Shown: positions 30,078 to 33,754 of the stretch, one piece after another
Numbering within the stretch: position 1 is the stretch's first letter
Layout of the letters: each line of letters starts with the position of its first letter
Source: Rhizobiaceae bacterium
Lineage (GTDB): Bacteria > Pseudomonadota > Alphaproteobacteria > Rhizobiales > Rhizobiaceae
DNA length: 64,000 nt
Assembly (NCBI GenBank): GCA_017644005.1
Contig: JAEPMJ010000001.1
Location: 992,001-1,056,000, forward strand
Direction: 5' to 3'
The notes under the pieces: model-generated
What the model was told of the DNA's origin: nothing
Database searches by the model: none
What the model saw: the letters and a program-made list of their open reading frames with translations, nothing else
Translations under genes and position numbers: made by a program

Positions 30078-31001
30078 TCAATATTTCTGCGGCACGTAAA
30101 GCTCTCGCGGCAGCACGGCGCGCTCATAGTTCGGATTGAACACCCGGTCGGGCAGCTCGACCTCCTCATGCGGCACCGGCTCGTAGGGCACCTGCGCCAA
30201 CAGATGGTCCATGCAGTTCAGCCGGGCGCGCTTCTTGTCGTTGCCTTCCACAATGTACCAGGGCGCTTCAGGGATGTTGGTACGGGCGAACATCTCCTCC
30301 TTGGCCTTGGTATACCGCTCCCAGCGTACGCGCGACTGCAGGTCCATGGGCGACAGCTTCCACTGTTTCAGCGGGTCGTGGATGCGCATCAGGAAGCGCA
30401 TCTGCTGTTCCTCGTCGGTGATGGAGAACCAGTATTTGACCAGAAGGATGCCGGAGCGCACCAGCATGCGCTCGAATTCCGGCACGTCGTTGAAGAACTG
30501 CTCGACCTGGTCTTCCGACGCAAATCCCATGACGCGCTCGACGCCGGCTCGGTTGTACCAGGAGCGGTCGAACAGGACGATCTCGCCGCCGGCCGGCAGA
30601 TGCGGCACGTAACGCTGGAAATACCATTGCGACTTTTCGCGCTCGGTGGGCGCCGGCAGCGCCACGACCCGTGCAACACGCGGATTGAGCCGCTGAGTGA
30701 TACGCTTGATGACGCCGCCCTTTCCGGCGGAATCGCGTCCTTCGAACACCACCACGATCTTCTTGCCGTGATATGAGACCCAGTCCTGCAGCTTGATCAG
30801 TTCCGACTGCAGCCGCAGCAGCTCGTGGAAATAGATGTGCCGGTCGATCGTCGGCGGGTGCATCTTGGTATAGATGCGGCGCAGCTCGACCGAAAGCGCC
30901 GGCTCGGAAAGCTCGAGCTCGTAATCCTCGTCCAGTGTGTCGGCGAGCTCCGCCTCCAGCCAATCCATGCCGCCCCGCCCGTCCCTCGGCTCGTCCGCCA
31001 T
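30078..31001 (-). CDS. ppk2: Polyphosphate kinase 2
   Basis: 307 residues from ATG 31001 (ATG 31004 is adjacent; GGAGAACG spacing favours either). Walker A FEGRDSAGKGGVIKRITQRLNPR, the lid RVVALPAPTEREKSQWYFQRYV and Walker B-like FDRSWYNRAGVERVMGF are all present. PPK2 transfers phosphate between polyphosphate and nucleotides, mostly in the direction of NTP synthesis. Size and the single domain fit the class I group. Downstream is the CDGSH protein gene; upstream, divergent, is the peroxiredoxin gene across 250 bases in which I recognise no operator. Confidence 0.94.
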   Translation of the reverse strand: MADEPRDGRGGMDWLEAELADTLDEDYELELSEPALSVELRRIYTKMHPPTIDRHIYFHELLRLQSELIKLQDWVSYHGKKIVVVFEGRDSAGKGGVIKRITQRLNPRVARVVALPAPTEREKSQWYFQRYVPHLPAGGEIVLFDRSWYNRAGVERVMGFASEDQVEQFFNDVPEFERMLVRSGILLVKYWFSITDEEQQMRFLMRIHDPLKQWKLSPMDLQSRVRWERYTKAKEEMFARTNIPEAPWYIVEGNDKKRARLNCMDHLLAQVPYEPVPHEEVELPDRVFNPNYERAVLPRELYVPQKY

Positions 31002-31936: not shown

Positions 31937-31963
31937 GGCCCGGTGCGATGCGCCGGGCCTTTT
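31937..31963 (+). terminator. Rho-independent terminator of the peroxiredoxin gene
   Basis: GGCCCGG (31937-31943) pairs perfectly with CCGGGCC (31953-31959) across a 9-nt loop and is followed by TTTT (31960-31963). It lies 25 bases after the peroxiredoxin stop and touches the end of the convergent coaBC gene. Confidence 0.85.
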
Positions 31964-33435
31964 CACGCCGTCTGGCCTGCCAGCCTTTCCGCCACCAGCG
32001 CGGCCAGGCGCGTCGCGACTTCAGCCTTGCTGAGCTCCGGCCACTCCTCGACGCCGTCGGCGGAAACAATGCGGACCAGATTGCGGTCGCCGCCCATCAC
32101 GCCCTGAGCGCCGATGCCGGAATCATGCGAGACATCATTCGCGACGATGAGATCGGCGCCTTTCTTCCTCAGTTTGGCGGCGGCGTTTGTGGCGAGGTTT
32201 TCGGTCTCGGCGGCAAACCCGATGACAAGGCCCGGGCGCTTGGCGTGGTGGCCGATGGTGGCCAGAATGTCCGGATTTTCGACCATGGCAATCGGTGGCG
32301 GGCCTTCACCCGCGACCTTCTTGATCTTCTCCGTTCCCTCATTTGCAGGGCGCCAGTCAGCCACCGCGGCGACAAAGATGCCGGCGTCGGCCGGAAGTTC
32401 GGCCTCGACCGCGGCCTTCATCTGGCGCGCGGTTTCGACATGTGTGACCGACACACCCTGCGGGTCGGGGATGTTCACGGGACCGGAGACAAGGCGAACA
32501 TCCGCACCGAGCCTGGCAAGGGCGGCGGCAATCGCGTGGCCCTGCTTGCCGGATGAGCGGTTGGCGATGTAGCGCACCGGGTCCATCGGCTCGTGCGTCG
32601 GGCCCGACGTCATCACGATGCGCTTTCCAGAGAGCGGTCGGTCTGCCGGTTGGAGCATGCGCTCAACCTTGGCGACAATCTCCAGCGGTTCGGCCATACG
32701 GCCTTCGCCGGCCTCTCCACTTTCGGCCATCTCGCCACTGTTGGGCCCGACGAAGCCGACGCCGTCGCGGACCAGTGTCTCGCGGTTCCGGCGCGTTGCC
32801 GGGTTCGACCACATGGCGGGGTTCATGGCCGGCGCCATCAGCACCGGCGCGCGAGCCGCAAGCAGCACGGCGGACGCAAGGTCATTGGCAAGGCCATTGG
32901 CAGGCTTCGCCATCAGATCGGCTGTCGCTGGCGCGACAACGATCAGGTCGGCCTCCCGCGCAAGGCGGATATGGCCAACATCCTGTTCGTCCTGGCGGTC
33001 GAACAGGTCAGTGAAAACATGGTCTGCCGACAGCGCGCCAACCGAGAGCGGCGTAATGAACTCGCACGCGGCTTCGGTCATGATGCAGCGCACGGCAAAG
33101 CCGCGCTCGCGCAGCCGCCGTATCAGATCGAGGCATTTATAGGCGGCAATGCCACCGCCGATAATGAGCAGGACACCGGGGCCCGGGGGACCGGCCGCCC
33201 TGCCTGCCTTCGGAGCGGACTGTCCGCTCGCTTCGCCGAAGAGAAGCCAGGCGGGCGTGACTGCGAAGCGCCTGGCGTATTCGGCGGCATCATCGGCGCC
33301 ATAATCCCGGGTGCCATTTTCATGGTGCGCGTAGGTGGATATGTTGATGCCCATATCGCGCGCGGCTTCCGACGCGGACGAAAATCCGGCTGCCTTGCGC
33401 GCCTTTCGCAGTCTTTCAGATTTTTCAGCAACCAT
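31963..33435 (-). CDS. coaBC: HTH-CoaBC fusion: phosphopantothenoylcysteine decarboxylase/phosphopantothenate-cysteine ligase
   Basis: 490 residues. About residues 1-68 are an XRE-type helix-turn-helix (SERLRKARKAAGFSSASEAARDMGINISTYAHHENG, then RRFAVTPAWLLFGE). A short linker leads into CoaC at about 87 (LLIIGGGIAAYKCLDLIRRL) with the catalytic DVGHIRLAREADLIVVAPATAD and the PAMNPAMW substrate segment. CoaB begins near 275 (RIVMTSGPTHEPMDPVRYIANRSSGKQGHAIA). The enzyme makes 4'-phosphopantetheine from 4'-phosphopantothenate and cysteine for coenzyme A. AAGGA lies five bases before the ATG. The DNA-binding extension and several palindromes upstream suggest self-regulation. The frame runs unbroken through the junction. 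Confidence 0.93.
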   Translation of the reverse strand: MVAEKSERLRKARKAAGFSSASEAARDMGINISTYAHHENGTRDYGADDAAEYARRFAVTPAWLLFGEASGQSAPKAGRAAGPPGPGVLLIIGGGIAAYKCLDLIRRLRERGFAVRCIMTEAACEFITPLSVGALSADHVFTDLFDRQDEQDVGHIRLAREADLIVVAPATADLMAKPANGLANDLASAVLLAARAPVLMAPAMNPAMWSNPATRRNRETLVRDGVGFVGPNSGEMAESGEAGEGRMAEPLEIVAKVERMLQPADRPLSGKRIVMTSGPTHEPMDPVRYIANRSSGKQGHAIAAALARLGADVRLVSGPVNIPDPQGVSVTHVETARQMKAAVEAELPADAGIFVAAVADWRPANEGTEKIKKVAGEGPPPIAMVENPDILATIGHHAKRPGLVIGFAAETENLATNAAAKLRKKGADLIVANDVSHDSGIGAQGVMGGDRNLVRIVSADGVEEWPELSKAEVATRLAALVAERLAGQTA

Positions 33436-33588
33436 TGATGTCCTTGCACTTCTGTATTAATCTCAATACATTCTGCACAATATTGTGCGTTCTGCAATGT
33501 GCAAGCGCTATTTCAGGGTCAGGTCGATGGCGATGCGTATAAAAACATCGCCCGGAGTCATTGGCAGGGATTTCGGCAGCGGCTGACC
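33436..33588. promoter_or_regulatory. Palindrome-rich promoter region of HTH-coaBC
   Basis: Within 75 bases upstream of coaBC are three nested or adjacent inverted repeats: TGTATT-N6-AATACA (33453-33470), the perfect 14-base GCACAATATTGTGC (33475-33488), and outer arms CTTGCAC (33443-33449) with GTGCAAG (33499-33505). The first has the 6-6-6 layout common for XRE-type repressors. AT-richness contrasts with the surroundings. These are candidate operators for the enzyme's own N-terminal domain. No binding data. Confidence 0.65.
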
Positions 33589-33687
33589 TCAAGCCTCCTG
33601 CTCCATGGAAACGCCGCCCCCGGCGGCACTTCGGCGCACGTCACGGATTACCTCGTCGTCGAGTTTTCGAACGGTCACGGTGCCCAT
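33589..33687 (-). pseudogene. Truncated FitA/VapB-like ribbon-helix-helix antitoxin
   Basis: A 32-codon frame begins MGTVTVRKLDDEVIRDVRR and ends at SMEQEA followed by TGA. It matches the first two-thirds of FitA-like ribbon-helix-helix antitoxins, which usually run to about 70-85 residues and continue as MEQE(A/V)R. AGGAG lies eight bases before the ATG and a perfect 26-base palindrome lies 42 bases upstream. No toxin (PIN-domain) gene follows. It is placed between ubiB and coaBC on the same strand. Most likely the remnant of a toxin-antitoxin pair; a functional mini-regulator is possible but the second helix looks cut short. Confidence 0.6.
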
Positions 33688-33728: not shown

Positions 33729-33754
33729 TGACAGCATTGCTAGCAATGCTGTCA
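33729..33754. promoter_or_regulatory. Perfect 26-base palindrome upstream of the antitoxin remnant
   Basis: TGACAGCATTGCT and its exact reverse complement abut to form a 26-base perfect palindrome. It overlaps the ubiB stop codon (33752-33754) and stands 42 bases before the truncated antitoxin start. Length and symmetry fit the operator of a ribbon-helix-helix antitoxin. Having no loop and no T-run, it is a poor terminator. Confidence 0.75.

Follow-up and report, generated by a model that had tools for sequence, protein, structure and literature searches.

Why should an enzyme of CoA biosynthesis carry a DNA-binding domain of its own, and could that domain act on the gene that encodes it? The question is raised by a coaBC gene in a 64,000-nt stretch of DNA from a Rhizobiaceae bacterium (the whole stretch is hereafter termed the window, and its genome G000). 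It had been predicted that one frame encodes an XRE-type helix-turn-helix (HTH) followed by full CoaC and CoaB domains, and that three inverted repeats lie directly upstream. Both observations were confirmed: the frame of 490 aa scored above the Pfam and NCBIfam cut-offs, and the repeats CTTGCAC/GTGCAAG, GCACAATATTGTGC and TGTATT-N6-AATACA were found where they had been placed (Table 1).

A CoaBC enzyme with an N-terminal helix-turn-helix

By score and domains, the window protein belongs to the CoaBC family (NCBIfam equivalog coaBC_dfp, TIGR00521; 396 bits, cut-off 219.7), with CoaC and CoaB both complete, and catalytic activity is predicted from motifs including GHIRL and PAMN, which we take to be CoaC motifs with the roles usually given to them. 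It is the single CoaBC match in G000. Residue 178 (MAKPANG) is Pro here and Leu or Met in four aligned homologues, and could represent either a sequence error or a CoaC substitution. Relative to ordinary CoaBC, the N terminus is extended by about 85 residues, comprising the HTH and a short linker. Both Pfam matches to this extension passed narrowly (HTH_19, 31.2 bits, cut-off 30.2; HTH_3, 23.5, cut-off 23). An alignment-based structural model was used (mean pLDDT 78.8), the single-sequence prediction being poor (mean pLDDT 41.7); its N-terminal part forms five helices with block-mean pLDDT of 78 to 95, and its best Foldseek match was 6tgv, the CoaBC of M. smegmatis. Both the profile match and the five-helix fold expected of an XRE/lambda-repressor-like HTH were thus found in the window domain. 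Pfam and NCBIfam scans found no S24 peptidase domain in the window protein, which also has no N-terminal RHH domain, RHH being seen just as a separate decayed fragment upstream. Rfam returned nothing at gathering score between positions 31000 and 36500, and PADLOC gave weak HTH matches and nothing else.

Table 1. Features of the coaBC locus, in window coordinates.
Feature	Position	Strand	Remarks
XRE-CoaBC fusion gene	31963..33435	-	single unbroken frame, 490 aa, ATG start
CoaB domain (phosphopantothenate-cysteine ligase), residues 268-490	31966..32634	-	Pfam DFP 268-443
CoaC domain (phosphopantothenoylcysteine decarboxylase), residues 88-260	32656..33174	-	Pfam Flavoprotein; GHIRL and PAMN motifs
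XRE-type HTH, residues 1-68	33232..33435	-	HTH_19 at 7-67
Outer inverted repeat CTTGCAC/GTGCAAG	33443..33505	.	arms 33443-33449 and 33499-33505
Candidate operator TGTATT-N6-AATACA	33453..33470	.	18-35 nt before start codon; half-site common to Salaquimonas homologue
Perfect palindrome GCACAATATTGTGC	33475..33488	.	14-mer
Likely decayed PIN toxin C-terminal tail GDVFIRIAIDLTLK*	33508..33552	-	by eye, cf. GDDFIHTDI..AL in relatives
Decayed FitA/VapB-like antitoxin start	33589..33687	-	32 codons then stop; own RHH profile 51.0 bits
Perfect palindrome TGACAGCATTGCTAGCAATGCTGTCA at ubiB stop	33729..33754	.	26 nt; similar sequence at same junction in relatives

Repeats ahead of the gene and kin of its XRE domain

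The window repeats by themselves are modestly unusual and weakly significant: TGTATT occurs twice within 100 nt ahead of the gene, a count reached in 14 of 5,000 shuffles. They become convincing because the half-site recurs in a Salaquimonas MAG (L036), whose XRE-CoaBC is 63% identical to that of the window and is preceded by four copies of TGTATT within 100 nt (0 of 5,000 shuffles). One copy lies at -35 in both loci. Upstream DNA for this XRE-S24 class was available from these two loci, the window being one, and both have the half-site; its spacing is not kept, being N6 in the window and N3 in Salaquimonas, and GCACAATATTGTGC, which those 100 nt of Salaquimonas lack, was seen in the window only. 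When the best single inverted repeat in the last 70 nt was scored, the two genes reached 7 and 9, with p <=0.05 in one of them. The perfect TGTATT-N6-AATACA occurs once in G000, besides one match with three mismatches, a single occurrence being what chance predicts for so long a pattern. Conservation in relatives, on which the original prediction hinged, therefore held for the HTH (P0007, P0008 and Salaquimonas) and for the TGTATT half-site but not for GCACAATATTGTGC or the spacing.

Our main reading, to which we assign a probability of roughly two in three, is that the XRE-CoaBC protein is likely an autogenous repressor, whose N-terminal XRE domain would bind the TGTATT half-sites 18 to 35 nt before its own start and thereby repress coaBC. 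That the protein binds DNA, represses the gene and responds to CoA status are the steps we infer, and a CoA-loaded CoaBC oligomer is predicted to be the form that binds the upstream repeats. Mycobacterial CoaBC is a dodecamer, and CoaB of M. tuberculosis is inhibited by CoA and its thioesters, as stated in excerpted text of one study (PMC7794376).

Proteins of this kind were sought twice in a set of 5.8 billion clustered proteins. The 120 top matches listed for each search included at least seven XRE-CoaBC clusters (P0001, P0002, P0003, P0004, P0007, P0008 and P0121, the last being the Salaquimonas protein); P0001 and P0002 may be of the same origin as the window, and the gene calls of P0003 and P0004 begin inside the HTH, which is therefore partial in both. 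Across five full-length sequences, 30 of the first 68 positions are invariant, including the start Met. A query with the HTH of P0007 alone matched only itself, probably owing to the strict E-values that 5.8 billion proteins impose, and no fusion was found in the genus of P0008, where four of five genomes matched. Two members of the window's own genus (G001 and G002) encode CoaBC 90 to 92% identical to the window's without the HTH, which must therefore be dispensable there.

An HTH profile retrieved 27 loci, one being the Salaquimonas fusion and 26 encoding repressor-like HTH proteins, many of them S24-like on visual inspection. The highest identity recorded, 64%, was to the HTH of a Jiella avicenniae protein (L031), also of S24 kind by eye. 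XRE-CoaBC HTHs grouped together in the HTH tree, but with the Jiella repressor inside the group; a single origin for all XRE-S24-CoaBC HTHs was compatible with the tree test (p-AU 0.24). Many of the repressor-like proteins with the nearest non-CoaBC HTHs have upstream repeats, as judged by eye. The idea that the half-site is common to S24 repressor genes was rejected: the 27 loci hold nine TGTATT half-sites, four of them before the Salaquimonas fusion. Since S24 repressor genes mostly lack the half-site, the specificity of the HTH would have drifted.

DNA-binding domains and toxin-antitoxin genes at the coaBC junction

We surveyed 172 oriented loci with home-made profiles (threshold >=8 bits); their genomes are mostly the best-scoring ones listed (384 genomes matched in one search) and not a random sample, and three (G046, G049 and G053) come from different families within the same order. 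The survey comprised 41 RHH-CoaBC, 2 XRE-CoaBC and 129 unfused loci. The XRE version of CoaBC is rare, at seven clusters among the listed proteins and 2 of 172 genomes, with further XRE fusions possible among lower-scoring matches outside those listed in the two genome searches. The original prediction held that standard CoaBC starts without an HTH; this is true of most, but an RHH-CoaBC is frequent among the relatives (41 of 172). The RHH is that of a FitA-type antitoxin (e.g., L004, L011 and L170), an assignment backed by PF22513 (FitA-like) for the database proteins (P0009 to P0012, P0067 and P0098) and for one fetched-locus sequence.

The search for XRE-Dfp fusions proposed at the outset yielded, besides the two window-type cases in 172, a different XRE in six genomes of another family (genus code g219). 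These came from a search of the order (397 genomes, 381 with a match), from which 40 loci were fetched for their long open frames and thus do not form a census. By our own profiles and by eye, 11 carried RHH, six the g219 XRE, two were the single cases G455 and G592, and 21 had no recognised fusion domain, three of these having an RHH or PIN match upstream. All six g219 genomes fetched (L241 to L246) have the XRE, with HTH_3 at about 1e-9 in the two scanned; CoaBC of G455 (L252) begins with a further HTH_3/HTH_26 domain, and that of G592 (L253) with an HTH-like start that had no Pfam match. The window-type XRE profile matched none of the g219, G455 or G592 N termini. The RHH fold differs from HTH, while XRE types have the broad HTH fold in common.

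Several of these fusions have upstream motifs of their own, and the self-repressor idea gains from such parallels with other DNA-binding domains. TTACNT at -24 and ATGTAA at -15 precede four of the six g219 genes, and GGATATATCC occurs twice upstream of the G455 gene. An exact TGATTGCA lies within the 110 nt ahead of 36 of 41 RHH-CoaBC genes, where shuffled sequences average 0.04 sites per gene, but of just 1 of 46 unfused genes free of toxin-antitoxin (TA) pairs; allowing one mismatch raised the figures to 41 of 41, where shuffles averaged 0.37, and to 9 of 46. The one-mismatch motif, sought in an interval that differed slightly, was present at 55 of 72 antitoxin genes of TA loci against 10 of 46 plain genes. 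The occurrence of TGATTGCA before both fusions and TA antitoxins means that the two sets of genes have alike sites. A generic palindrome test failed to separate every class, p <=0.05 being reached by 18 of 41 RHH, 0 of 6 g219 XRE, 1 of 1 G455, 0 of 1 G592 and 4 of 46 unfused genes.

Upstream of coaBC, 72 of the 129 unfused loci carry both an RHH antitoxin and a PIN toxin, 9 PIN only, 2 RHH only and 46 neither. In all 72 TA loci (e.g., L002, L003, L005 and L007) the antitoxin comes first and the toxin second, and the toxin stop lies 11 to 44 nt from the conserved CoaBC core, a measure free of start-codon choice. Measured to the coaBC start, picked by script ahead of the core, the toxin stop is within 25 nt in the 72 loci, 25 of them with a 4-nt ATGA/GTGA overlap. 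Given this proximity or overlap and the leading antitoxin, coaBC would appear to occupy third place in a TA operon where the pair is present. Toxin-antitoxin genes are the likely source of the RHH domain in CoaBC fusions. In relatives ubiB precedes coaBC, and its motif was found upstream in 57 of 72 TA loci, 31 of 46 plain loci and 35 of 41 RHH loci; ATTGCTAGCAAT, with one mismatch allowed, lies ahead of 17 of 72 antitoxin genes. The window fusion sits at the same junction and keeps a decayed antitoxin/toxin remnant, whose antitoxin region shares 81% DNA identity over 95 nt with the junction of G237. In Salaquimonas, antitoxin and toxin frames are both open and are followed by XRE-CoaBC.

Turnover at this junction was followed on a FastTree phylogeny of 186 CoaBC cores, from which P0005, P0011 and P0012 were left out and in which the 57 rows scored as having no fusion or TA pair take in 11 with a PIN match only or an RHH match only. 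The junction underwent 56 state changes on the tree. Starred branches force at least 10 of the 18 changes counted for the RHH state and at least 4 of the 6 for the XRE state. Between P0004, which has the HTH, and P0006, which lacks any extension, the cores show 9 differences in about 400 positions, all of them within the first 200; with cores so nearly identical and the HTH in one, a recent swap of the front end by recombination is suggested. Such rapid turnover, together with the same-genus relatives that manage without the HTH, is what would be expected if the N-terminal domain were a passenger, left by recombination at a TA-rich junction in an enzyme that tolerates leftover regulator DNA, with no regulation involved. 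We consider this unlikely, as HTH residues and half-sites are kept between homologues only 63% identical, the one-mismatch RHH motif is universal in RHH fusions and uncommon in the controls, and different DNA-binding domains recur at the same position of CoaBC.

The fused domain might instead act mainly in trans, on prophage or TA operons elsewhere, with CoaBC lending oligomerization only; the window HTH is close to S24-type repressors, and for RHH domains of antitoxins, cross-regulation of other TA operons is conceivable. Genome-wide site counts bear on this. Ten RHH genomes from two genera, picked because the motif was already known to occur at coaBC, each have a single mismatch-free copy of the 16-mer TGATTGCAATGATTGC, just upstream of coaBC (10 of 10); a reversed control gave 0. 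Eight one-mismatch matches were found elsewhere, in 5 of the 10 genomes, and would be available to a regulator acting in trans. The unique perfect site at coaBC, like the single perfect site of the window in G000, nevertheless makes action mainly on other loci quite improbable.

Proposed autogenous repression and known systems

Translation from the internal Met M28, which would leave a truncated, non-functional HTH, is very improbable: P0003 and P0004 are predicted to begin at the equivalent Met and GGAAG lies 11 nt ahead of the internal ATG, yet the Shine-Dalgarno-like AAGGA (33445-33441), 5 nt ahead of the ATG at 33435, is the better spaced, and residues ahead of M28 are conserved in P0007, P0008 and P0121. 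Activation of coaBC by the fused domain instead of repression, though sequence alone does not tell which way regulation goes, is equally hard to credit with sites 18 to 35 nt before the start codon and with source families of such domains that are mostly repressors.

Returning to self-repression, the wider fusion pattern across relatives is a stronger result than the interpretation of the window, which is plausible. The window arrangement may exemplify a process that recurred in Hyphomicrobiales, whereby CoaBC gains DNA-binding domains plus their operators, either from phage-type repressors or from antitoxins whose intervening toxin gene got lost. It is a tentative proposal that such captures repeatedly made CoaBC a CoA-sensing self-repressor and that, where the toxin remains, the gene for this enzyme, on which CoA depends, stands third in a TA operon and is linked to that operon's autoregulation; we give this somewhat less than even odds. 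If it is true, a core enzyme became its own regulator several times by capturing DNA-binding domains, one visible source of which is the FitAB/VapBC antitoxins. The presumed intermediates, namely a TA pair overlapping coaBC, an RHH fusion and a decayed remnant, are all present in the genomes examined, hence both mechanism and evolutionary route are open to test, and the RHH fusions in Mesorhizobium-named proteins offer a laboratory subject. To our knowledge, little is known of the transcriptional control of CoA synthesis in Alphaproteobacteria. Among the publications listed by the literature searches, no title or abstract opening described CoaBC fused to a DNA-binding domain or placed coaBC in a TA operon.

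Ordinary CoaBC (Dfp, TIGR00521; PDB 6tgv) has the same complete CoaC and CoaB as the window protein but not the HTH and linker extension. S24/LexA-type repressors of Alphaproteobacteria (e.g., L031) have a similar HTH and, by eye, upstream repeats, whereas the window protein has CoaBC in the effector's place and no S24 peptidase. FitAB/VapBC operons are related through the sister CoaBC fusions, whose RHH is FitA-like, and through the 72 of 172 loci in which frames for antitoxin and toxin immediately precede coaBC; unlike these, the window has a decayed remnant only, and the domain fused to its CoaBC is an XRE instead of an RHH. PutA is an RHH-fused autogenous repressor enzyme, according to excerpted text of PMC5293562. 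Like trifunctional PutA (RHH, PRODH and P5CDH), the window protein has an N-terminal DNA-binding domain on a bifunctional flavin enzyme. The enzyme itself differs, being biosynthetic and the sole CoaBC of its genome, with XRE in place of RHH and no membrane switch expected. What the window protein shares with PutA is a fused DNA-binding domain and a conserved operator-like sequence upstream, repression in the present case being predicted from sequence.
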